64,000 nt of DNA from Haloferula luteola (GCF_014201715.1 NZ_JACHFD010000010.1:62001-126000); one strand, 5' to 3'. Shown: positions 19,256 to 30,621, numbered from the stretch's first letter. Notes: generated by a model from the sequence alone, not told the origin. Numbers and translations: made by a program.

Positions 19256-19936
19256 TTATCGGCTGCCACCCGGCTTGGGCTTCTCAAATGTCAGATTGCT
19301 CCGGGATGTCGCCCGGTCTCCGTTCATCGTCGCGACTTCCATCTTCTTTAAGGTCCACTTTCCACCGGGAATCTTCATCACGTCGCTGACTTGGAAGCGC
19401 TTGATGCGTTTGCCTTTGCGGTCAAAGCCCTCCACCTTCATGAAGGCTCCATACTCCTTGTCCACCCACACGTAAACCAAGCCATAGGCCCCCTTGTTCC
19501 CCGGATTGTTCACCCGAATCTTCCAGCAATCCCGGGTGCTGACCCGCTCAGAGCCCTCAAGACTCGGATTCGGCCAGTACAAAAATCGGAAAGACAGGTC
19601 CTCATACGTCAAATCGCTGCTGGCGATCGGCTGCTGCAGTTTGGAATCCGCAAACCGAAGCGTCTTCCCATTCACGATTTCAAACAAATCATACTGCTCA
19701 TCCCCCAGTCGCATGTGAAAACGCTGCGCTCCATTCTCCAACGCGAACTGGATATCCTTCTCCCGGAGAAACAACGAAACATCCGTGTCCTTCTTCTTCC
19801 CGTCGATTTCCCCCCTGAGATCCGCGTTCTGGAGCGTCGCACCAATCCTGACTCGCTCCATGATCTGCTCCGCAGACTGTGAAAATGCCGGTGCCACCAA
19901 TGCAGCAACGGCCAAAATCGGAAAAATCTTCTTCAT
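19256..19936 (-). CDS. LolA-like outer-membrane lipoprotein-sorting protein
   Basis: A 226-residue secreted protein: signal peptide MKKIFPILAVAALVAPAFSQ, then a beta-rich domain with the organisation of the LolA/LolB-like fold (VSLFLREKDIQFAL, FRFLYWPNPSLEG, CWKIRV, YGLVYVWVDKEYGAFMKVEGFD, GKWTLKKMEVATMNGDRAT). This shape is found in proteins annotated as outer-membrane lipoprotein-sorting protein in Verrucomicrobia and Planctomycetes. A run of G lies just before the ATG. Longer in-frame starts upstream are rejected because they bury the signal peptide. It lies directly downstream of the PqiC-like gene of the MCE cluster on the same strand. Confidence 0.72.
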   Translation of the reverse strand: MKKIFPILAVAALVAPAFSQSAEQIMERVRIGATLQNADLRGEIDGKKKDTDVSLFLREKDIQFALENGAQRFHMRLGDEQYDLFEIVNGKTLRFADSKLQQPIASSDLTYEDLSFRFLYWPNPSLEGSERVSTRDCWKIRVNNPGNKGAYGLVYVWVDKEYGAFMKVEGFDRKGKRIKRFQVSDVMKIPGGKWTLKKMEVATMNGDRATSRSNLTFEKPKPGGSR

Positions 19937-20001
19937 GCCCCCAAGCATCCCGCAAAATCCCGGCCGCGCAAGCGATCTCCCTGTCGGCCAGTCCCCCGCA
20001 C

Positions 20002-20598
20002 CTAGCGAAGCAAGTCCCGGGCAATCCGAAGGTTGAGGCGATCCAGACACCGGTTCATCGCAGCGACCGTCGCCTCCGCATGATCCGCAGCCCCCTGAAC
20101 CTCCGCCACCTGCTCTGTGTAATCAAAAGATCGATTGCTCACCGCACCTTCTTCTCCCATCTGCCGGATGGCATAAATCCCCTCCAATCGGACCGCCCCG
20201 TCACTGCCTCGCTCAAACTGGGTCAATTCCACGTCAAGGGTCGCTCGCGCCCCCCCACTGCGCGCCAACTCACTGTCCAGCGCCACAATTTGCGAAGTAC
20301 CTAACAAGCGACGCAAACTTGCAGCCATGTTTCGCGCGATCTCCTTGTCGAGCGACTCACCCCACAATTTTCGATCGAAAACTTCCAGGGCATTCGCATC
20401 GGTTCGATAAACCAGCTCTTCCCGATCGAGGTATCCAGGAATCCTCACAGAGCGGATGTGCGCACGCAGCTCAGGGCGATGCCCAACCGGATTCGAAGCC
20501 GTTACCTGAAAGGCATAGTAGTTCCGGTCGTCTTTCGATTTGAACATCAGTGCGCACGATGGCAGTGCAGCGAAGCAGAGAATCAACAGGCGTTTCAT
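20002..20598 (-). CDS. PqiC-like outer-membrane lipoprotein of an MCE system
   Basis: About 198 residues. Signal peptide with lipobox LPSC (MKRLLILCFAALPSC), then a beta-alpha domain of the ABC-type transport auxiliary (PqiC/DUF330) type: YYAFQVTAS, VRIPGYLDREELVYR, NALEVFDRKLWGESLD, IARNMAASLRRLLG and the VELTQFERGSDG strand. PqiC-type lipoproteins connect MCE protein tubes to the outer membrane. I start at MKRLL; ten codons upstream there is another ATG whose product would lack a proper signal peptide. It follows the MlaD-like gene and closes the transporter operon. Confidence 0.82.
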   Translation of the reverse strand: MKRLLILCFAALPSCALMFKSKDDRNYYAFQVTASNPVGHRPELRAHIRSVRIPGYLDREELVYRTDANALEVFDRKLWGESLDKEIARNMAASLRRLLGTSQIVALDSELARSGGARATLDVELTQFERGSDGAVRLEGIYAIRQMGEEGAVSNRSFDYTEQVAEVQGAADHAEATVAAMNRCLDRLNLRIARDLLR

Positions 20599-20624
20599 GG
20601 CGATAACATGGGGATGCGAAAACC

Positions 20625-21626
20625 TCACTCGCGACCAGAGAGTATCGATTCCGGATGGCGTTTGAGAAAATCGGCCAATTCCGTCCAGGCATCGGCCGTT
20701 CGCCTGAACTCCTTGAGCACATCATTGATCCGGGTCACCGCCACTCCGTCATTCGAAGTGAAGTCCTCAAGATTCTCCGCCACTCCGTCAATTCGGGCCA
20801 TGCTCTCGTTCGCCTTCTCCAAAGTCTCCCGGAACTCGCCCGCAATGGGATCCAACTCGCGATCCAGAGTCGCCGACGCGCTCTTCAAACTCGCCATCGC
20901 TTCCTTCAAATCGTTCACCGCGGTTTTCAGCTCTGGGTTGCCCACCACCTTATGAAGATCCTCCGTCACCTCGAGAAGCCCTCGGTTGATTCCTTCTACA
21001 TCCAAGGCATCCACCTTGCCCTCCGTCGTTTTCACCAACGACCCGATCTCGTCAAACAACTCACTGAAATTGATGTTACCAATCTTGTCCAAACTCTGGG
21101 AAATCGTCTCCAACAGCTTGTCAATCGTCGCTGGCACCGTGGGAATCTGAACCAGATCGGGCCGCAGCGACGGCTCATACTGAAAGCCCTTCTCTCCGGG
21201 TAGGAAATCGAGCTCCACAAACAAAGCCCCCGTCACGAAGCTCTCCTGATTCAGGCGCCCACGCAATCCACGGGCCACCAACCGTTCCTGATCCTCTCTC
21301 TCCTCGAAGTCGAAAGCATCCTCATGGTCAGGATTGATCCGGCGGACCCTCTTTTCGTCGATCGCGATCACCACCGGAACGATCTTCTGATTCGTCCGCG
21401 GGTCGATCTGAATGGAAATGTCCTCCACCTCACCGAGCGATACCCCCCCAATTCTCACATCGGACCCCACTGCCAGTCCATTGGCGTCCCCTTGAAAATA
21501 CAAAATGAAATGTTGCTCCTCACGGAACCACTTGCCGCTCCCCACTGCAATCAGCGCCAAGGCGGCAATCACGATGGCTCCAGTGACGAACATCCCAATA
21601 GCGGTGGGGTTAACTTTGTGACTCAT
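20625..21626 (-). CDS. MCE (MlaD-like) substrate-binding protein
   Basis: One N-terminal membrane helix (IGMFVTGAIVIAALALIAVG), then an MCE domain (FRGDANGL-type start, YFQGDANGLAVGSDVRIGGV, SIQIDPRTNQ). A long helical C-terminus follows with low-complexity coiled-coil segments (LLETISQSLDKIGNI, ELFDEIGSLV and further). MCE proteins form hexameric rings or tubes that carry phospholipids across the periplasm. The start is the ATG giving MSHKVNPTA. A TTG four codons earlier is inside the end of the ATPase gene and is not needed. The ATPase gene ends eight bases upstream. Confidence 0.9.
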   Translation of the reverse strand: MSHKVNPTAIGMFVTGAIVIAALALIAVGSGKWFREEQHFILYFQGDANGLAVGSDVRIGGVSLGEVEDISIQIDPRTNQKIVPVVIAIDEKRVRRINPDHEDAFDFEEREDQERLVARGLRGRLNQESFVTGALFVELDFLPGEKGFQYEPSLRPDLVQIPTVPATIDKLLETISQSLDKIGNINFSELFDEIGSLVKTTEGKVDALDVEGINRGLLEVTEDLHKVVGNPELKTAVNDLKEAMASLKSASATLDRELDPIAGEFRETLEKANESMARIDGVAENLEDFTSNDGVAVTRINDVLKEFRRTADAWTELADFLKRHPESILSGRE

Positions 21627-21634
21627 GGCAAAAT

Positions 21635-22414
21635 TCAAGAAGAGCAGGGAACGGGGCCGTCGCCTCGATTGAGAAATTCACGCACTTGCGGCAAATCCGA
21701 TCGCTCCTTGAGCTCACGTGGATCTCCGATCACCGCCTGCGTCTTGGTCGTGACATCGAGAAAAATCGCCCGCTTCGCGATGCTCAACAAACTGGCCAAC
21801 TCATGCGTTACCAGCACCACTGTCCGGTCCATACTTTCGCTGATTTGCACAATCAGTTCGTCCAACCTCCGCGAGGTGATCGGATCCAGCCCAGCCGAAG
21901 GCTCATCGAAAAAAAGCACTTCAGGATCCAGGGCCATCGCCCGTGCAAATGCGGCCCGCTTCTTCATGCCTCCGCTGATATCCGCAGGATAATACGACTC
22001 GAATCCCGACAACCCTACCAACGCGAGCTTGTAGCGAACCAACTCCGCAATCTCAGACGCCCGCAGATCCGTATACTCCTCCAATGGCATCGCCACATTC
22101 TCAGCCAAGGTCAGTGCGCTCCAAAGTGCCCCTGACTGATAGAGCACCCCAAAACCGCGCATGATTTGCGCCCTCCGGTCCTGGGGAGCCCGCGTAAAGC
22201 TCTCCCCGTGATAGAGAACCTCACCGCGAGCCGGTTCATTCAACCCGATCAAATGCCGTAACAAGGTGCTCTTCCCACACCCCGATCCCCCCATGATCGC
22301 GAAAATCTCGCCCTTCTCGATCGAGAAATTGAGATCCTTCATGATGACCTTGGAGCCATAGGCCATGGTCAGATTCCTCACCTCGATCTGGGGAGCTTCT
22401 TCGATCATCTCCAT
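21635..22414 (-). CDS. MCE transporter ATPase (MlaF-like)
   Basis: ABC ATPase of about 259 residues: Walker A MGGSGCGKSTLL, Q-loop VLYQSGALWSALT, a signature segment DISGGMKKRAAFARAM, Walker B EVLFFDEPSAGLDP, and the H-loop VTHEL. The degenerate signature (SGGMKKR instead of SGGQ) and the SGALWSALT Q-loop are characteristic of MlaF-like ATPases. It starts one base after the permease stop codon and runs into the MCE gene. The product energises phospholipid transport. Confidence 0.92.
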   Translation of the reverse strand: MEMIEEAPQIEVRNLTMAYGSKVIMKDLNFSIEKGEIFAIMGGSGCGKSTLLRHLIGLNEPARGEVLYHGESFTRAPQDRRAQIMRGFGVLYQSGALWSALTLAENVAMPLEEYTDLRASEIAELVRYKLALVGLSGFESYYPADISGGMKKRAAFARAMALDPEVLFFDEPSAGLDPITSRRLDELIVQISESMDRTVVLVTHELASLLSIAKRAIFLDVTTKTQAVIGDPRELKERSDLPQVREFLNRGDGPVPCSS

Positions 22415-22415
22415 A

Positions 22416-23576
22416 TCAGATATCCAATACAGTGAACAAAACGGCGAACAGGGAGTCGATGACAATGATCGCCGTGATGGACGTCACCACCGCACGAGTC
22501 GTCGCCATTCCCACTGCCGTCGAGCTATTGCCGCATTGCATCCCTCGCAAACATCCGGCTCCCGCAATCACAATCCCAAAGGCCACACTCTTGATCACTC
22601 CCAGCGACATCTGCGTCAGATCGAGCCGCGCCACCGTCTGATGGTAGTAGACGAGAGCCGGAATACCCGACAACCACGAAACCAACAATCCTCCCACAAT
22701 GCCCACAATGTTCGAATAAATCGTCAACAAGGGCAGCATCAAAATCAGCGCGAGCATCCGCGGCAACACTAAGAAATCAAAAGGCTTGAAGCCGAACGTC
22801 ACCAAAGCGTCCACCTCCTGATTGACCTTCATCGATCCAATCTGCGCAGCAAAAGCCGCTCCCGTTCGCCCGCTCATGATGATCGCCGTCATCACGCAAC
22901 CCATCTCCCGGACCATCGCGATCGCCACCAAATCCGCCACATAAATCGAGGCCCCGAACGCATCCAACTGCGCCTTGCCCACAAATGCGAAAATCATCCC
23001 GATCAGCACACTGATCAGCGAAACGATGGGCAGCGCCTCCGAACCACAACCCTGAACCGTCGTCCAAAGATCCTGCTTCCGGAAAATGGCTCGCCCACGC
23101 AAGAGACGCCCAACAGACAACACCGCCTCCCCGACAAAATGCATCACATCGAGGAATGCATCATACTTCTCGATCGTCGCTTCCCCGACCCGCGAAAAGA
23201 AGTCTCTCTCCCTTTCCCGCTCCGCCCTCGATTTGTCCTCAGGAACGCAAAGAGCCAATTGGAGCAACCGACTGACTCCCTCCTGACTCCGCGCACGATA
23301 GTCCACCTCCAAACCTCTTTCCCGTGCCTTTCGAACCACGGCGAAAAGAAGCGAAACCAACGACGCGTCGTAAGCGGAAACCCCTTGAGTATCGAGCTCC
23401 AGTCGAGCACCCGCAGCCAGCCCCGCCAGTCCCCCAAACACCTCCTCTGAATCCGGTCGCGCCTGCTGCAAAGTCCAAGGGCCCGAAATACACAACAACC
23501 GCCCTTCCTCGGTGTCGGTCCACTTCAAGCTGACAGGCGATTCCTTCACACTTCTCGAGGGGCAGTCATGGGCCAT
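22416..23576 (-). CDS. MCE transporter permease (MlaE-like) with STAS-like N-terminus
   Basis: About 386 residues. The C-terminal about 250 residues are a MlaE permease: LPIVSLISVLIGMIFAFVGKAQL, the REMGCVMTAIIMSGRTGAAFAAQIGS block, FKPFDFLVLPRMLALILMLPLL and the CLRGMQC-like end. In front of it, residues 15-115 look like a STAS/anti-sigma-factor-antagonist-type domain (LLCISGPWTLQQA, LELDTQGVSAYDASLVSLL, AVVRKARERGLEVDY). MlaB-type STAS partners are usually separate proteins; the fusion also occurs in other phyla. It is the first gene of the four-gene MCE operon. Confidence 0.9.
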   Translation of the reverse strand: MAHDCPSRSVKESPVSLKWTDTEEGRLLCISGPWTLQQARPDSEEVFGGLAGLAAGARLELDTQGVSAYDASLVSLLFAVVRKARERGLEVDYRARSQEGVSRLLQLALCVPEDKSRAERERERDFFSRVGEATIEKYDAFLDVMHFVGEAVLSVGRLLRGRAIFRKQDLWTTVQGCGSEALPIVSLISVLIGMIFAFVGKAQLDAFGASIYVADLVAIAMVREMGCVMTAIIMSGRTGAAFAAQIGSMKVNQEVDALVTFGFKPFDFLVLPRMLALILMLPLLTIYSNIVGIVGGLLVSWLSGIPALVYYHQTVARLDLTQMSLGVIKSVAFGIVIAGAGCLRGMQCGNSSTAVGMATTRAVVTSITAIIVIDSLFAVLFTVLDI

Positions 23577-23728
23577 GCAGGATTCCCAGAATCTCCGCAC
23601 CCCTCATTGCTAGAAGAAGCCCACCAAAGAAACAAGCGGGATTCCACCCCAAGCTATCCGGACCCCTCCCCAGCAAAATCTCAGATCTCGATGCCATCTT
23701 CAGACATCGGCGAACGAGACCAGACGAC

Positions 23729-26161
23729 CTACTGCATCGCCTCCGGAGGGCACAGCAGAACACTCCAAATGCAATGCGTCGGACCATTTTCGATCCGAAT
23801 CAACATCTTGTTGTAGCCTTTGTGGAAATGCACGCGGCGATAACCTTCTCCGAGGTTCCAAGCCGATTGACCACGGTCCTGCCAGATCAATTGATCATTC
23901 AGCCAGACACTCGCCGCATCGTCACTCGCCACCGCAATCAACATATCGCGATCATTCTCGAACCAAACCTCGGTGTATGCGTAATACGTACTCGCCCCAA
24001 ACACATGAGGAGGCTGGCACCGTACCGAATCACTCTGATAGAACTCCCAACGCAACTCTCTCTGCGGATGATCCGGCTGATCCGAAAATTTTCCATCACG
24101 GTAAACGGCGTCGAAATCGATCTCTTCCTCTGGAGGATGCTTCTCCTCGAAGTCCACATCTCCATGATTCTCCCACGGCCCGACCAAATACCACGTATCC
24201 AGATACAACCACCCACTTCGTAAACTCTTCTCCGTAAAACGTCGGCCGGGCAAAGCCTTGGCCATGATCGCACCCTGATCGAGACGGATCGTCTCTCGCT
24301 TCCCCTGGGAAGCTGCCATGTTTGCACCCTCCCCGCTGAAATCGCCGCGCATCCCCGACGAAGTTCCCCCCACGCCCCCACCTCCAGTCATGTCGACCAC
24401 CACCCCATAGTCATTTTGAGAACGTGCCGCCTCCACTCGCGCAGCACTCCTAGCAAAAGCATTGCCATCGAACTCGCGCGACTGCGTCAAGGATCGTTGC
24501 CCAGACGTCTCCAACAGACCGCGCGCCCGCGAGGCCATATCCTCTACCTCCTGAACTGCCTGATGGAGATGGTCTCGATACGCGCCGAGTTCCCCCACGG
24601 TTTCAGGCAACGGTTCATACCTCTCCAATTCAACGCTCAGGTCGGGACGCTCCGGTACATAAACCTGCGCACCACCACGAGATTCGGCATAACTCTGGTT
24701 CTCCGTCACCGCTTGAGACACCGCACTCACGTCAGCATAAGCCTCGCTCAACTGCTGCTCGATACCGCTCGCCTCCTCGTAAAGCTCCGCAGGAGTCGCG
24801 TTCTCCGACGTCCTCGCTGGGTGCATCTTGTCCGCTACTGAGCTTTCCGTATCATTCATCTCCGCCAAGTCCGTCAAGGACTCCAGTCCCGCGAGACTCT
24901 TATCCATCGCCTCAGCCGCCCGCTTCGATTCATACAGCTCGCCCCTCACATCGTGCAAATCGGGAATCTCCTCCAAGCGTTCGTCCAATCTTGCTTGGAG
25001 CGCCTTCAACTCCTCCCGGAAGCCCTCGGCATTCTCAGGAGAGGGAACCTCTCTCGCAACATGCTCCGCAAGATCCTCCGCCATCTTTCTCGCCGAACCG
25101 TCCATCGTCGTTCCCCCACTGAAGAAACCCGCAGCCAGGTGCCCGTCCGACTGCGTCACGTCCCGGCCATCCACGTAAATCCGCGCCACGCTGGCCATTT
25201 TGTCGATCACCACCGCCACCTCGTGCCAGACTCCGAATCCCAAGGCATCCGGCAACGATCGAGTCTCCTGACCCATCGACTCCTCGTCGCTGGTAGAAAT
25301 CACAATTTGTCCACCCTTCGCCTCTCTCTCCGCCGCTTCCACAAACACCCGAAACCCACTTTGATTCTCACCCGAATGGCTGTTGGCAAACAACACCTGC
25401 GGCCGCTCAACCTTGGCCTCCAAACAAACCATCGCCACCACCGAGAACGCATCCCCCAAATCGATTGGCCAAAACTCCGCGCGAGAATTCACCCCGTTCC
25501 CTAACAAAACCTGTCCCCCTCTTTCGGGACTCTCCACCAATTGGGCATCGCGATCCAGAAACCCTTCGCGCCCCGTCACCCCATCCTTCAAATCCCCGTC
25601 GAACGAGAAACCATGCAGGGGCACCGCCTCGAACGGAGGAGCCAACGCAGCGCCAAACAGCATCACCTCGTCCAACTGACCTTTGGCACTGCGTTCATAA
25701 CCATTTTGGTATCCCCCAACCACAAAGTTGCGCCGACCCATGTTTTCAACGGCACGCCCCACATGCAACTTGAGGACCTCGGCCTCCCGCTTGAAGTCGA
25801 TTTGAGCATGCGCAAGGATGTCCCTCTGCTGGCGCTTCTTCAGTTCCGAAAGTTCACGATGCTGCCGCTCAAGAATCTCATCCCGCAATCGCCGGAGCTC
25901 CTCAACCTCCCGACGAAGCTTCTCCTTCTTCGTCACCTCCACCTCTTTCTTCAACTTCAACGCGGTCTTCTCATCCAGCTTTTGACGTTCCCGTTTCAAC
26001 CGATCGTGCTCCTGCCGCGCCAACTCCCGTTGCCGAACCTCCTCCGTCCGCTCGGCCTCCTTGACCGTATCAAACCGCATCCGCGTCTTCATCCACGGAG
26101 CCAGCAAGCCCAGCAAAATCGCGTGCAGCACAATCGAGAGAATGAACACCTTCTTCATCAT
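23729..26161 (-). CDS. 810-residue membrane-anchored coiled-coil protein with LamG-like and beta-sandwich domains
   Basis: Last gene of the ExbB-ExbD-ExbD operon; its ATG follows the ExbD stop directly. Residues 5-22 form a membrane helix (FILSIVLHAILLGLL). Residues 32-130 are a charged coiled coil. Residues 145-360 contain LamG/ConA-lectin motifs in unusual order (see findings): first GQLDEVMLFGAAL, later GFSFDGDLKDGVTG, SVVAMVCLEA, WHEVAVVIDK and ARIYVDG. A second helical region covers about 375-600, then a Gly-rich link (DMTGGGGVGG). Residues 650-805 form a C-terminal beta-sandwich (WYLVGPWEN, WFENDRDMLIAVASDDAASVW, GYNKMLIRIENG) of the sugar-binding/PA14-like type. No enzymatic motif. It takes the place of TonB or TolA in the operon. 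Confidence 0.72.
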   Translation of the reverse strand: MMKKVFILSIVLHAILLGLLAPWMKTRMRFDTVKEAERTEEVRQRELARQEHDRLKRERQKLDEKTALKLKKEVEVTKKEKLRREVEELRRLRDEILERQHRELSELKKRQQRDILAHAQIDFKREAEVLKLHVGRAVENMGRRNFVVGGYQNGYERSAKGQLDEVMLFGAALAPPFEAVPLHGFSFDGDLKDGVTGREGFLDRDAQLVESPERGGQVLLGNGVNSRAEFWPIDLGDAFSVVAMVCLEAKVERPQVLFANSHSGENQSGFRVFVEAAEREAKGGQIVISTSDEESMGQETRSLPDALGFGVWHEVAVVIDKMASVARIYVDGRDVTQSDGHLAAGFFSGGTTMDGSARKMAEDLAEHVAREVPSPENAEGFREELKALQARLDERLEEIPDLHDVRGELYESKRAAEAMDKSLAGLESLTDLAEMNDTESSVADKMHPARTSENATPAELYEEASGIEQQLSEAYADVSAVSQAVTENQSYAESRGGAQVYVPERPDLSVELERYEPLPETVGELGAYRDHLHQAVQEVEDMASRARGLLETSGQRSLTQSREFDGNAFARSAARVEAARSQNDYGVVVDMTGGGGVGGTSSGMRGDFSGEGANMAASQGKRETIRLDQGAIMAKALPGRRFTEKSLRSGWLYLDTWYLVGPWENHGDVDFEEKHPPEEEIDFDAVYRDGKFSDQPDHPQRELRWEFYQSDSVRCQPPHVFGASTYYAYTEVWFENDRDMLIAVASDDAASVWLNDQLIWQDRGQSAWNLGEGYRRVHFHKGYNKMLIRIENGPTHCIWSVLLCPPEAMQ

Positions 26162-26584
26162 TCAACGGGCGTTATAGCGATCATCGTAGGTGCGAATGCC
26201 TACATTCGAAAGACCTCGAAATTTGCAAGCATCGAGCATCTCCACCACCTTTTCAAAGGGAGTTTCAAAATGCGCATCAAGCCGAATCCGTTGCTCGGGA
26301 TGGGCACTCGCGATGCTCGCCAACTCAGCATGCAAGTGAGTGCGTGACACGGCTTCGCCCTGCCAGAAAACCTCGCCGCTCTCATTGATTCCAATCACAC
26401 ATTGGTCATCGTCCGGCGGCAACTTCACCGCGGATGATGACTCCGGTGGCACGATATCAATGTCCCGATCCTTCTTCTTGTACATCGTCGCTACCAAGAA
26501 GAAGGTCAGCAATAAAAAGACACAGTCGATCAAGGGCCCGATGGTGACATCAGGTTCGGGTTGGCGGCGGGATCGGAGGCGCAT
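26162..26584 (-). CDS. ExbD/TolR family protein (second copy)
   Basis: 140 residues: short cytoplasmic start (MRLRSRRQPEPDV), then TIGPLIDCVFLLLTFFLVATM as the single membrane helix with the conserved Asp of the PLIDxxFLLL motif. A periplasmic alpha/beta domain follows (CVIGINESGEVFWQG, AHPEQRIRLDAHFETPFEKVVEMLDACK). ExbD-type helices sit inside the ExbB pore and couple proton flow to motion of a partner. The gene lies six bases after the first exbD and its stop abuts the start of the 810-residue protein. Confidence 0.9.
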   Translation of the reverse strand: MRLRSRRQPEPDVTIGPLIDCVFLLLTFFLVATMYKKKDRDIDIVPPESSSAVKLPPDDDQCVIGINESGEVFWQGEAVSRTHLHAELASIASAHPEQRIRLDAHFETPFEKVVEMLDACKFRGLSNVGIRTYDDRYNAR

Positions 26585-26590
26585 GAAAAG

Positions 26591-27067
26591 TCAGTCGTTT
26601 CGGGTGGAATCTCCCGTCTGTTGAAACGGAAAATCGCGAATACGGAAACGGATCGAACCAAAGCCCGTTTGCTCAAGGCGATCTTGAGCATCAATAACCT
26701 TTTGAAATGGAGTGCCTCGTTCCACCACCACAGTAACCGGCTTCTCGCTGCCACGCTCGGCCAGCAAATTCTTCAGCCACTCCCCTGGAGCCTCAAGCGG
26801 CTTGAACGTCCGAACACCCGACCAATTCTGGCCCACAGGCGCATACAAAGTGCCACCATCATCCACCCCAATCGGAAACGAATCATCATTCGGTTCAGGA
26901 GTGATGGCCGATGTGTCATCCGACAAAGTCACCGGAATCTGCCGCTCAAATCGCTTGATCATGCTCGTGACCAAGAAAAAGACCAACAGCAGGAAAACAC
27001 AGTCGATCAGAGGAGAGAGCAAGACACCGGTCTCCGCAGGTCGCTTGCGATGAGCGCGAAGATTCAT
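26591..27067 (-). CDS. ExbD/TolR family protein (first copy)
   Basis: 158 residues from MNLRAHRKRP; longer in-frame starts lie inside the exbB gene and are rejected because ATG at 27067 overlaps the exbB stop in an ATGA junction. The membrane helix LSPLIDCVFLLLVFFLVTSMI carries the key Asp. The periplasmic part (FPIGVDDGGTLYAPVG, KPVTVVVERGTPFQKVIDAQ, GFGSIRFRI) has the ExbD fold and a longer loop than the second copy. Two ExbD genes after one ExbB gene are common in Planctomycetes and Verrucomicrobia. Confidence 0.9.
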   Translation of the reverse strand: MNLRAHRKRPAETGVLLSPLIDCVFLLLVFFLVTSMIKRFERQIPVTLSDDTSAITPEPNDDSFPIGVDDGGTLYAPVGQNWSGVRTFKPLEAPGEWLKNLLAERGSEKPVTVVVERGTPFQKVIDAQDRLEQTGFGSIRFRIRDFPFQQTGDSTRND

Positions 27068-27867
27068 TTCCGATTCAGGAACCAATCTTTGAGTAGAGCC
27101 TCCGATTCGACCTCGATCGAACTCGCGATGTGATGCACGCGACGTCGCGACCAATGGTATCCAAGAAGCGCTGGAATCGCCAGAATCAGACCGACCGCCG
27201 TCGTGATCAGGGCCTTCGAAATCGAACCCGCCAACAGCGACGCACCTCCTTCGTCGCCGAATACCTCCACCAACTTGAATGCCTCAATCATCCCAATCAT
27301 CGTCCCCAGCAAACCCAACAAGGGAGCAATCCCCGCAATCACACTCAGTGGATTGCACTTCTCCTCCTGATCCAGCACGGCTCTCGCTCCGATATCCGTC
27401 GCCCCTGACTGCAAAACATCAAAATTCGTGCCACGGAACTCCACCAGATGGCAAATGATCTCCGACGCCGTCGATGGCTGCCTTTTGCAGGCCGCCAGAA
27501 TGTCATCATACCGCCTCTCATGGAACATCGGTCGCACCTCCTTCAACAACGCCGGGGGCATGAATTTCCCCCGCCGCAGCGTGATGAGGCGCTCCAACAG
27601 CACCGCCAACATCCCAATCGAAAGGATCGCCAAAGCCACCATCGTCAATCCCCCCTCGAACATCTCCTCAAGCCAATCCACTTGGACAAGCTGCGACTCC
27701 ATCGGGTTCTCAATCAACAGCGGATCGACCTCCGAAGCCTCGACTTGAGCCGCTGGCGCTGATTCGACCCCCTCTTCGCCGTGGGCGAGACGCGGAGCCC
27801 AAGCGGCAATGAACCACAAAAAGCCGGAGATGGCGGCCAGGGAAATCAGGCGGATTCTAGGAAACAT
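27064..27867 (-). CDS. ExbB/TolQ/MotA family proton channel
   Basis: 267 residues. The N-terminus is a signal-peptide-like segment (MFPRIRLISLAAISGFLWFIAAWAPRL) and a periplasmic stretch rich in Ala, Glu and Pro, then a first core membrane helix (LTMVALAILSIGMLAVLLER). A cytoplasmic domain (FHERRYDDILAACKRQPS) and two pore helices follow (LSVIAGIAPLLGLLGTMIGMIEAF and the segment with SKALITTAVGLILAIPAL). These match the MotA/TolQ/ExbB proton-channel family. First gene of a four-gene minus-strand operon, divergent from a sensor kinase gene. A start eight codons upstream is possible. Confidence 0.92.
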   Translation of the reverse strand: MFPRIRLISLAAISGFLWFIAAWAPRLAHGEEGVESAPAAQVEASEVDPLLIENPMESQLVQVDWLEEMFEGGLTMVALAILSIGMLAVLLERLITLRRGKFMPPALLKEVRPMFHERRYDDILAACKRQPSTASEIICHLVEFRGTNFDVLQSGATDIGARAVLDQEEKCNPLSVIAGIAPLLGLLGTMIGMIEAFKLVEVFGDEGGASLLAGSISKALITTAVGLILAIPALLGYHWSRRRVHHIASSIEVESEALLKDWFLNRK

Positions 27868-27991
27868 AGTGACGGAAGAAACTTGTCCCATCCCACCGTA
27901 ATGCTCCGTGCCTCACAAGATCCTCACCCCTACCTAATCCTACTATTGGAGCCGGGTCCTGCTCTTGCTAAAGCGAGGAACGCTCTCCCCA

Positions 27992-30001
27992 ATGGGTTTT
28001 CGCCACCTAGTTCTGATTCTCTTCCTCCTTCCTCGGCTCGGGTTCGGAGCTCCAGACGTCTTGACCCAGGTGGGTCAAGTCCGCGCCCTCACCCCGGAAA
28101 AAGCCCGAGCTCGAATCCCCGTCGAGATCGAGGGAGTCGTCATCTACTTCGACGCCACTACCGGTCACGCTTTCATCCACGATGAGACGGGCTCCGTGTT
28201 CTTCCGCCCCGGGATAGCCGGAACACCGGGTTCCGTCACGGCCGCCATCGGCGATCATGTCCGCCTCCGGGGTATCACTTGGGCAGGAGAATTTTCCCCA
28301 AGTATCGCTGGCCCCTCCAGCGAGGACGCTCCCGCCCCCGTCGAGCTCATCCCCCTCGGCGCAGGAAAATTGCCCGAGCCTCTCCCCGTTCCCTTCGATC
28401 AACTCAAAACCGGGCGTTGGCACGACCAATGGGTCAGCATCCATGGCACCGTGCGCGAAATCGATGCCGCACCCGGATTAGGACCGCGTCGAATTTCTCT
28501 CCTACTGAGCGGACCCGACGGACGCAGCATCCAAGCTCTCGGAAACAACCTCGACATCGGAAACCCCGTCATGGAGGTGAACCAGGAAATCGAGCTCCGA
28601 GGCATCGTCGCCGGCGGCGGCGATGCCCTAGGACGCCTCCAAGATGCCCATCTCCTCATTGGGGATGCCTCCTGGATCCAAAGCGACTCCGCCTCCACCA
28701 CTGCAGCCTTCGACCAGGCTCCCACCGCACTCTCCGATCTTCGACGTTACCTGCCACCCGAGATCCGCGCCCATCGAATCCGAGTGGATGGCAGCATCTC
28801 CCTCGTCGTGCCCAATCAAGGATTTTTCCTCACCGATGGCCACCTCGGCACCTGGATCGAGACCACCCAACAGCAGTCCTTCCACCTCGGCGATATCGTC
28901 ACTGCGGTGGGCTACGTGTCGGGAAATACCCTCACCGATGGCATCATCAAAGTCCTCGCTCAAGGCCCCCCTCCTGCCCCCCGTGTGACCCAACCGAGCG
29001 AATTGAATGATGCCACTCTCCAAGGCGCGCTTGTCACCCTCGAAGGCACCCTTCGCGATCTCCGCAACCTCTCCACAGGCTCCGATTTTCATATCGAAGA
29101 TCGCAATGGCCACACCATCGCCGCGACCGCCCCCCCACTCTCCGCCCCCCCTGAGTCGGGAGCGCGGATCCTTGTCACAGGAGTCGCCGATCAAGGACAA
29201 CTTCGACTACGGAATTCCCGTGATCTCACCATTCTTTCCGGACCACCATGGCTCACCCCGTCGCGTCAGATCGCCTTGCTGATCGGCGCAGCTTTCGTCG
29301 TCACGGCGATCATCCTTGGGCTCACTTCCCTCAAAATCCAGGTCGCCCGCCAAACCCGCCTGATCCAGGCGCAACTCGTCCACCGCACCCTCGTCGAAGA
29401 ACGACAACGCATGGGTCGCGAACTTCACGATAGCCTTGAGCAGTACCTCGCCGGACTCCACTTGCAACTCGGTGCCCTAAAAGATCGCACTGCCGACTCC
29501 CCCGCATCCGTTCGCGAACTCGCCGCGGGAGCCGTTCGCATGCTCGACCACTGTCGCGAGGAAGCTCGGCGCTCGGTATTTGAACTCAGGACACAAACCT
29601 TCCAACGAGAGGGGCTGGCCGCCGCCCTCGTCCAATTCGTCGAGGAAATCCATCCATCCGCCCCCCCTACCGTCACCGTGGAGATTACAGGCGTAACGCG
29701 CCCCCTCCCTTCCGCCACGGAGTTCAACCTCCTTCGCTGCGCCCAAGAGGCCACCGCCAACGCCCTCAAACATGCCCAAGCGCAATCCATTCAACTTCAT
29801 CTCCACTACCTCCCGGATCGCATTCGCCTCAGCATCCACGACGATGGACAGGGTTTTGACCCTGCTGCTCCCTACGCGTCGCAGCGCCCCCATTTCGGGC
29901 TCCTCCATCTCAAAGAACGTTCAGATCGCATGCATGCCGAACTCGCGGTCGATTCCGCGCCAGGCCTAGGCACCACCGTCACCCTGCACCTGCCCCTATG
30001 A
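27992..30001 (+). CDS. NarL-type sensor histidine kinase with OB-fold-like periplasmic region
   Basis: About 669 residues. Signal-like N-terminus (MGFRHLVLILFLLPRLGFG), then a periplasmic region of about 400 residues. It contains two or three repeats that look like OB-fold strands (IPVEIEGVVIYFDATTG, VTAAIGDHVRLRGITWAG, ALVTLEGTLRDL). A membrane helix sits near residue 430 (IALLIGAAFVVTAIILGL). The cytoplasmic part is HisKA_3 with phosphoacceptor RELHDSLEQ, then HATPase_c with EATANALKHA and DDGQGFDP. It overlaps the response regulator by four bases. The TTG nine codons upstream is rejected because it lies before a cleaner signal peptide. The signal it senses is unknown. Confidence 0.85.
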   Translation: MGFRHLVLILFLLPRLGFGAPDVLTQVGQVRALTPEKARARIPVEIEGVVIYFDATTGHAFIHDETGSVFFRPGIAGTPGSVTAAIGDHVRLRGITWAGEFSPSIAGPSSEDAPAPVELIPLGAGKLPEPLPVPFDQLKTGRWHDQWVSIHGTVREIDAAPGLGPRRISLLLSGPDGRSIQALGNNLDIGNPVMEVNQEIELRGIVAGGGDALGRLQDAHLLIGDASWIQSDSASTTAAFDQAPTALSDLRRYLPPEIRAHRIRVDGSISLVVPNQGFFLTDGHLGTWIETTQQQSFHLGDIVTAVGYVSGNTLTDGIIKVLAQGPPPAPRVTQPSELNDATLQGALVTLEGTLRDLRNLSTGSDFHIEDRNGHTIAATAPPLSAPPESGARILVTGVADQGQLRLRNSRDLTILSGPPWLTPSRQIALLIGAAFVVTAIILGLTSLKIQVARQTRLIQAQLVHRTLVEERQRMGRELHDSLEQYLAGLHLQLGALKDRTADSPASVRELAAGAVRMLDHCREEARRSVFELRTQTFQREGLAAALVQFVEEIHPSAPPTVTVEITGVTRPLPSATEFNLLRCAQEATANALKHAQAQSIQLHLHYLPDRIRLSIHDDGQGFDPAAPYASQRPHFGLLHLKERSDRMHAELAVDSAPGLGTTVTLHLPL

Positions 30002-30621
30002 AGCCCCCCCTTCGCATTCTCATCGTGGACGACCATTTTTTCGTTCGCGCGGGACTCAAAAGCAGCCTGGAGAGCGAGCCCGACCTCACCATCTGTGGCG
30101 AAGCCGCCAACGCCGCCGAAGCCCTCTTGGCTCACAGCACTCTGCGGCCCGATCTCATCCTCCTCGACCTTCGACTCCCAGATCGTGACGGCCTCGACCT
30201 CCTGGAACATCTCAAAAATCGTGATCCCTCCACCCAAGTGATCGTCTTCTCCGTCGACGAAACAGAAACCGACATCGCTCGTGCGCTTGAAGCGGGCGCT
30301 GCGGGATACCTCCCCAAATCATCCCCCCGCAGTCAACTCCTCGCAGGGATTCGCGCTGTCGCAGAAGGGGGAACTTCCTTTCCCCCCACCATTGCAGCAA
30401 AATTCCGCGAACACCGCTCCCGCACTCCGCTCAGCCCCAGAGAACGCGAAATTCTTCATCTCATCGTCGATGGCCAACCGAACAAACTCATCGCAGCTGC
30501 CCTAGGAATCTCGGAAAACACCGTCAAACTCCACGTCTCAAACCTCCTCGCAAAAACGGACGCTCCCGATCGCACAAGCATCGTCAAACTCGCCATCCAA
30601 CGCGGCTGGGTCCGTCCCTAA
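29998..30621 (+). CDS. NarL/FixJ-family response regulator
   Basis: 207 residues. Receiver domain with acidic pocket VDDHFF, phosphorylated Asp in ILLDLRLPDRDG and lysine in YLPKSSP. C-terminal LuxR-type HTH: LSPREREILHLI, PNKLIAAALGISENTVKLHVSNLL. Cognate partner of the preceding kinase by overlap (ATGA) and class (NarL kinase plus LuxR regulator). A fragment of an IS5-type element begins immediately after its TAA, so the native downstream context is lost. Its target genes are not shown by the sequence; the divergent ExbB operon is the obvious candidate. Confidence 0.93.
   Translation: MKPPLRILIVDDHFFVRAGLKSSLESEPDLTICGEAANAAEALLAHSTLRPDLILLDLRLPDRDGLDLLEHLKNRDPSTQVIVFSVDETETDIARALEAGAAGYLPKSSPRSQLLAGIRAVAEGGTSFPPTIAAKFREHRSRTPLSPREREILHLIVDGQPNKLIAAALGISENTVKLHVSNLLAKTDAPDRTSIVKLAIQRGWVRP

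Follow-up and report, generated by a model that had tools for sequence, protein, structure and literature searches.

A probable Ton/Tol-type force transducer with a C-terminal jelly-roll domain in Haloferula luteola

Ton and Tol are the textbook routes by which proton energy reaches the outer membrane. A 64,000-nucleotide stretch of the Haloferula luteola genome (GCF_014201715.1, NZ_JACHFD010000010.1:62001-126000; hereafter the window) carries a minus-strand operon in the order ExbB, ExbD1, ExbD2 and an anchored protein of 810 residues, and the question that this locus raises is what such a motor would move. The window belongs to a 4.9-Mb Verrucomicrobiota genome, whose genus group is shared with Haloferula sp. 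BvORR071. We consider it probable that the operon encodes a proton-motive-force-driven, Ton/Tol-type trans-envelope force transducer whose C-terminal domain has a different fold. The four genes and the parts of the last protein, with transmembrane abbreviated TM and the predicted local distance difference test of AlphaFold2 abbreviated pLDDT, are as follows.

27064..27867 (-), ExbB/TolQ-type proton channel, 267 amino acids (Pfam MotA_ExbB, E = 3.6e-22)
26591..27067 (-), ExbD/TolR stator 1, 158 amino acids (Pfam ExbD, E = 1.1e-14; TM Asp in PLIDCVFLLLVFFLV)
26162..26584 (-), ExbD/TolR stator 2, 140 amino acids (Pfam ExbD, E = 2.1e-25; TM Asp in PLIDCVFLLLTFFLV)
23729..26161 (-), putative TonB/TolA-like force transducer, whole gene, 810 amino acids (72% to the ortholog in congener G013)
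26093..26149 (-), transducer membrane helix, residues 5-23, with S9-x3-H13-x6-L20 (SHLS motif)
25757..26092 (-), charged helical rod, residues 24-135 (AlphaFold2 helix, pLDDT mostly 75-92)
25094..25756 (-), LamG/ConA-like domain, residues ~136-356, an apparently permuted insert (Pfam and rotated-sequence match)
24524..24787 (-), conserved helical module, residues 459-546 (profile match in 73/90 members)
24287..24487 (-), Gly-rich flexible linker, residues 559-625 (low pLDDT; sequence)
23732..24256 (-), C-terminal jelly-roll (CT), residues 636-810, the family signature (AlphaFold2 pLDDT 91; PDB fold matches)

A first-pass annotation had read these genes as a single operon, which is confirmed by gene calls, Pfam matches and conservation in the congener G013. 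There the operon is complete, with 72% identity across the 810-residue protein, and the arrangement is therefore not a matter of chance. Of the junctions, described earlier as overlaps of 4, 6 and 0 bases, the 4-base overlap of ExbB with ExbD1 and the abutment of ExbD2 on the 810-residue gene hold, whereas the 6 bases between ExbD1 and ExbD2 are a gap. Pfam domains, the TM aspartate kept by both ExbDs in a motif check and the threonines in TM2 and TM3 of ExbB identify the ExbB/TolQ and ExbD/TolR proteins. The ExbB starts with a signal-like N-terminus and a short periplasmic extension.

How the last protein would engage this motor is suggested by its membrane helix. TonB and TolA bind their motors via S-x3-H-x6-L-x3-S, the Ser and His touching Ser34 and Trp38 of ExbB or Ser28 and Trp32 of TolQ in cryo-electron microscopy (cryo-EM), and the Leu and final Ser of the motif are less conserved in Ton (PMC12215075). 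In the window protein S9, H13 and L20 stand at exactly this spacing, and the fourth position is Met24, not Ser. The protein thus carries an SHLS-type motif, and its earlier placing in the position of TonB or TolA holds. The wording "instead of" these proteins does not, as the motor end is itself TonB/TolA-like; "giant" was likewise overstated for 810 amino acids. S-x3-H-x6-L was found in the window protein and 21 of 56 scanned family proteins, as against a similar pattern in 9 of 913 control open reading frames, at least one of which is a frameshifted family member.

On the motor side, Ser83 in TM1 of the window ExbB aligns exactly with E. coli TolQ Ser28 and ExbB Ser34 in a profile alignment, and the TM3 proline is invariant in an aligned set of 14. 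The TM His is present in every one of the 42 single-ExbD systems, 40 of which have it within an S-x3-H motif, and the motif is present in 7 of 44 two-ExbD systems; both counts follow hand correction of split anchors, one frameshift and two cases with the His but with the Ser displaced or missing. The Ser equivalent to position 83 is kept in 49/49 systems that have the His; of the 37 without the His, 24 have lost the Ser (raw Fisher p = 5e-10, computed before hand correction and ignoring relatedness), a pattern suggestive of covariation between the transducer His and the ExbB Ser. The window itself falls inside a two-ExbD clade (43 rows; Shimodaira-Hasegawa-like approximate likelihood ratio test, 99) and is among the few members there to retain the His.

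The membrane helix and two long helical regions noticed in the first pass reappear in an AlphaFold2 model of the whole protein (22 relatives), with helices at 2-59, 64-~145 and 356-555, low confidence over the LamG region, and a disordered Gly-rich linker (~559-625) that leads into a β domain. The predicted long helices, 2-145 together with 356-555, would qualify as a periplasm-spanning domain II. Modelled alone (44 relatives), CT is predicted to form a β-sandwich with a pLDDT of 91. Among PDB folds it comes closest to the N-terminal sugar-binding jelly-rolls of glycoside hydrolase family 2 (GH2; Z = 11.6, root-mean-square deviation = 2.9, 135 residues), and Foldseek returned a β-glucosidase that has a PA14 domain and a Cea1A structure with N-acetylglucosamine. 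The modelled fold is thus similar to jelly rolls of the GH2 sugar-binding and PA14 kinds, in keeping with the "sugar-binding appearance" ascribed to it earlier, but a shared fold shows no function, sugar binding included. CT differs from these domains in its low identity (~7-17%) and in having no catalytic domain. Of the profile families suggested in the first pass, LamG is matched (38.6 bits) and PA14 is not: the C-terminal domain has no significant Pfam match, PA14 reaching only E = 0.22 and 11.7 bits against a cut-off of 24. No GH2 profile was among the Pfam matches of the protein, and a PDB sequence search with it returned no match. A TonB_C- or TolA-type C-terminal domain was not matched there by Pfam or NCBIfam in the window protein, the CT model being an all-β jelly-roll. 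No TonB_C or von Willebrand A (vWA) chain was among the matches listed by VIA-align, which is not evidence of absence.

The link between CT and the motor recurs well beyond the genus. A CT profile was scanned against 387 Verrucomicrobiota genomes, with matches above 100 bits regarded as strong and genes called as longest open frames with approximate start positions. It gave 44 strong matches in 29 genomes, distinct from weaker generic ones, and both ExbB and ExbD adjoin 41 of the 44. Of the three that do not fit, G009 is a genuine orphan and the other two run up to contig ends. Weaker generic relatives from the order, at about 21 loci, show no ExbB/ExbD in their vicinity. A second collection contained 80 CT loci, 68 with both ExbB and ExbD, and in 9 of the remaining 12 the contig is cut within 2.5 kb upstream. 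The two collections partly overlap, and their counts are therefore not to be added. The second comes mostly from Verrucomicrobiota, Planctomycetota, Lentisphaerota and Kiritimatiellota; single records are labelled Nitrospirota, Bacteroidota and KSB1 and may be misplaced. The co-occurrence that the first pass had proposed to check over Verrucomicrobiota genomes is thus found there and across phyla. Nor did the finding that it had named as contrary arise, the protein in genomes devoid of ExbB/ExbD genes, since the three congeners with orphan CT proteins encode 8 to 14 ExbD genes per genome elsewhere.

Gene order varies among these loci (B-D-D-CT, B-D-CT, B-CT-D, D-CT-B-D and B-D-anchor-CT), and the constant part of the family consists of the N-terminal membrane helix, helical rod, helical module, Gly-rich linker and CT. 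The profile of the helical module finds fused, split and orphan members alike. In the split systems of several lineages, anchor and CT are two proteins of one operon: the anchor (e.g. L136:5138-6382) has an SVLLH-type TM helix and a coiled coil, and the CT protein has a signal-like N-terminal segment, which places CT in the periplasm, followed by helical module and CT. The split systems show anchor, module and CT to be separable parts. CT and ExbB also appear to have travelled together, as the correlation between their distance matrices is r = 0.82 in a set of 87 operons (highest value in 1000 shuffles, 0.07) and, where one genome holds paralogous operons, CT and ExbB assign each of them to the same set of orthologs. 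Variants include a second B-D-D-CT operon in the window's own genome (L039:5795-9561), with a 461-residue ExbB and neither LamG nor TM His, and tandem pairs of CT transducers behind a single ExbB-ExbD pair (L125:5383-11282 and L127:5323-10995). The CT genes at L041:6922-8838 and L119:2286-5134 have an in-frame stop and an apparent frameshift, respectively, and represent either pseudogenes or sequencing errors.

Several observations weigh against a Ton/Tol-type transducer. Basic residues directly follow the membrane helix of the window protein, so that its topology is ambiguous by sequence alone. Most two-ExbD relatives have no TM His, and docking therefore does not go through this residue in every system. 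Nor is conservation seen at the ExbB Trp that takes part in the cryo-EM network. On the tree, His and Ser each change only about three times, which does not suffice for a test corrected for phylogeny, and their covariation is therefore suggestive, not proven. The correlation of CT and ExbB distances is partly shared ancestry. Finally, in three congeners, Haloferula sp. BvORR071 among them, a CT protein that has a TM helix is encoded with no ExbBD beside it; these orphans may use a shared motor or may be motor-free derivatives.

The LamG motifs reported in the first pass are present, although not as the defining part of the protein. Pfam places Laminin_G_3 at residues 236-344 (E = 1.5e-9; 38.6 bits against a cut-off of 27.6), within a block (~136-356) that is extra in comparison with L148 (Phycisphaeraceae), the closest relative outside the genus. 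In 78 member scans, with some genomes present in both sets, LamG was matched only in the window and G013 proteins. The view that LamG or a lectin domain forms the system's core was thus ruled out by the absence of the domain from L148 and from all scanned members bar G013, and by these comparisons the domain is a lineage-specific insert. The signature of the C-terminal part of LamG, GGYQNGYERSAKGQLDEVMLFGAAL, stands ahead of the rest of the domain. When it is moved to the end, the score rises from 42.4 to 49.2 bits and coverage extends from 16-108 to 16-146 of the 151 profile positions; the domain therefore appears to be circularly permuted.

The nearest description is that of the vWA force transducers of the Planctomycetes-Verrucomicrobia-Chlamydiae (PVC) bacteria, which have a TonB/TolA-like TM segment with SHLS and occur in Planctomycetes and Verrucomicrobia with a tolQ-like gene, a pair of different tolR-like genes and an accompanying tetratricopeptide repeat (TPR) gene (Mol Biol Evol 2025, PMC12204202). 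The CT family would be analogous to them: it shares the SHLS helix, the tolQ-like gene and two heterologous tolR-like genes, and differs in having a jelly-roll instead of the C-terminal vWA fold and no consistently linked TPR gene. Pfam found no vWA domain in the window protein or the scanned family members, the CT model being a jelly-roll, and the paper on the vWA transducers makes no mention of LamG, PA14, lectin or coiled coils (PMC12204202). No description of the CT family was found in the open-licence literature, an absence that is no proof of novelty.

The genome has Ton genes of its own. It encodes two TonB_C proteins, which lie near other ExbB/ExbD genes, and yields nine TonB-dependent receptor matches, with ten ExbB and eleven ExbD matches in total; the window operon is therefore an additional machine beside them (INDEPENDENCE from Ton). 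Because TonB_C proteins and receptor matches are already there, we think it more likely that the system pulls or gates an outer-envelope component than that it serves classical TonB-dependent uptake. The idea that the partner is a conserved neighbour was ruled out: among 115 flanking proteins, which matched 124 Pfam families, there is no common partner, and the commonest family (LacI) was seen only 5 times. Only in family f32 does the operon contain a HEAT-repeat protein, which follows B-CT-D directly and has a lipobox-like N-terminus (L141:4397-7015 and L142:4458-6923), a candidate partner for these systems. In the window, an Mla-type lipid transport operon (19256-23600; STAS-MlaE, ABC ATPase, MlaD, auxiliary lipoprotein and LolA-like) lies 129 bases beyond the end of the 810-residue gene and shares its strand; as a partner it was ruled out, being missing at the G013 ortholog locus. 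On the other side, a NarL-type histidine kinase and a LuxR-type response regulator (27965-30621) diverge from ExbB across a gap of ~98 bases. The kinase has an ortholog, also divergent, in G013, and two orphan CT genes of the genus have other kinases, of propeller type, beside them.

Among other explanations, the best placed, though unlikely, is a substitute for Tol-Pal, in which the arm would tether or constrict the outer membrane. TolB_N was not found in 4/4 genomes of the genus and was found in three control genomes, although a TolB that has diverged too far could escape the Pfam model. The likeness to TolA-TolQR extends to the closest solved ExbB relatives, which are TolQs, to the helical periplasmic domain and to the docking motif; the window system has, however, neither a TolA C-terminal domain nor TolB or Pal in the operon. 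The family is also patchy, with matches above 100 bits in 29 of 387 phylum genomes and a clear CT relative in 6 of 18 genus genomes, and is therefore a poor fit to an essential division function. We find it more doubtful that the protein is a TonB variant in which CT, in place of the TonB C-terminal domain, opens TonB-dependent receptors to some particular substrate, for example a polysaccharide. ExbB/ExbD homologues, a single N-terminal TM helix with S-x3-H-x6-L and a periplasmic arm are common to both, and the genome has its nine receptor matches. But by Pfam the family has no TonB_C and its CT fold is different, no receptor recurs beside the CT operons in the flanking-gene survey, and the genome's TonB_C proteins have motor genes near them already. 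The family also departs from Ton in its helical rod, which replaces the proline-rich linker of TonB, and in often having two different ExbDs. Still less credit goes to the reading of a static scaffold or sensor, binding wall or glycan, that happens to be encoded together with ExbBD and possibly feeds the divergent kinase. Lectin-like folds, orphan CT proteins, the two-component pair divergent from the operon here and in G013, and the different kinases next to two orphans would suit it; the near-invariable ExbBD linkage and the docking motif conserved with its ExbB partner residue do not. The reading that a lectin-like gene came to lie beside ExbBD by chance draws only on the generic nature of ExbBD, is already contradicted by the 68 linked loci among 80 and by G013, and can be dismissed as vanishingly improbable.

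For the force transducer that we prefer, ExbB would form a pentameric channel around a heterodimeric axle of the two ExbDs, a 5:2 motor by homology. The membrane helix of the 810-residue protein would dock on ExbB TM1 via S9 and H13, like TonB and TolA, and the helical rod and the module would pass the motion of the motor on to the jelly-roll. CT would then grip a partner, which may sit in the outer periplasm, the outer membrane or the wall, and in the window lineage the LamG inserted in the rod would add a second contact, probably glycan- or protein-binding. The pulled or tethered partner would not be encoded nearby.

Across the family, which occurs in phyla with unusual envelopes and is present in some genomes in several copies, the same motor and docking helix appear to be joined to an end domain that is unrelated. 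Concrete residues are at hand in S9 and H13 of the transducer and S83 of ExbB, as are cultured carriers, namely Cerasicoccus and Rhodopirellula, with Haloferula for the orphan form. Tentatively, and with rather less confidence than in the transducer itself, we suggest that these systems may be a further major class of ExbBD-powered transducers across the PVC phyla, beside TonB/TolA and the vWA proteins, in which CT would pull an outer-envelope glycan or glycoprotein and two-ExbD motors would have re-engineered their docking by losing the transducer His and the ExbB Ser together.

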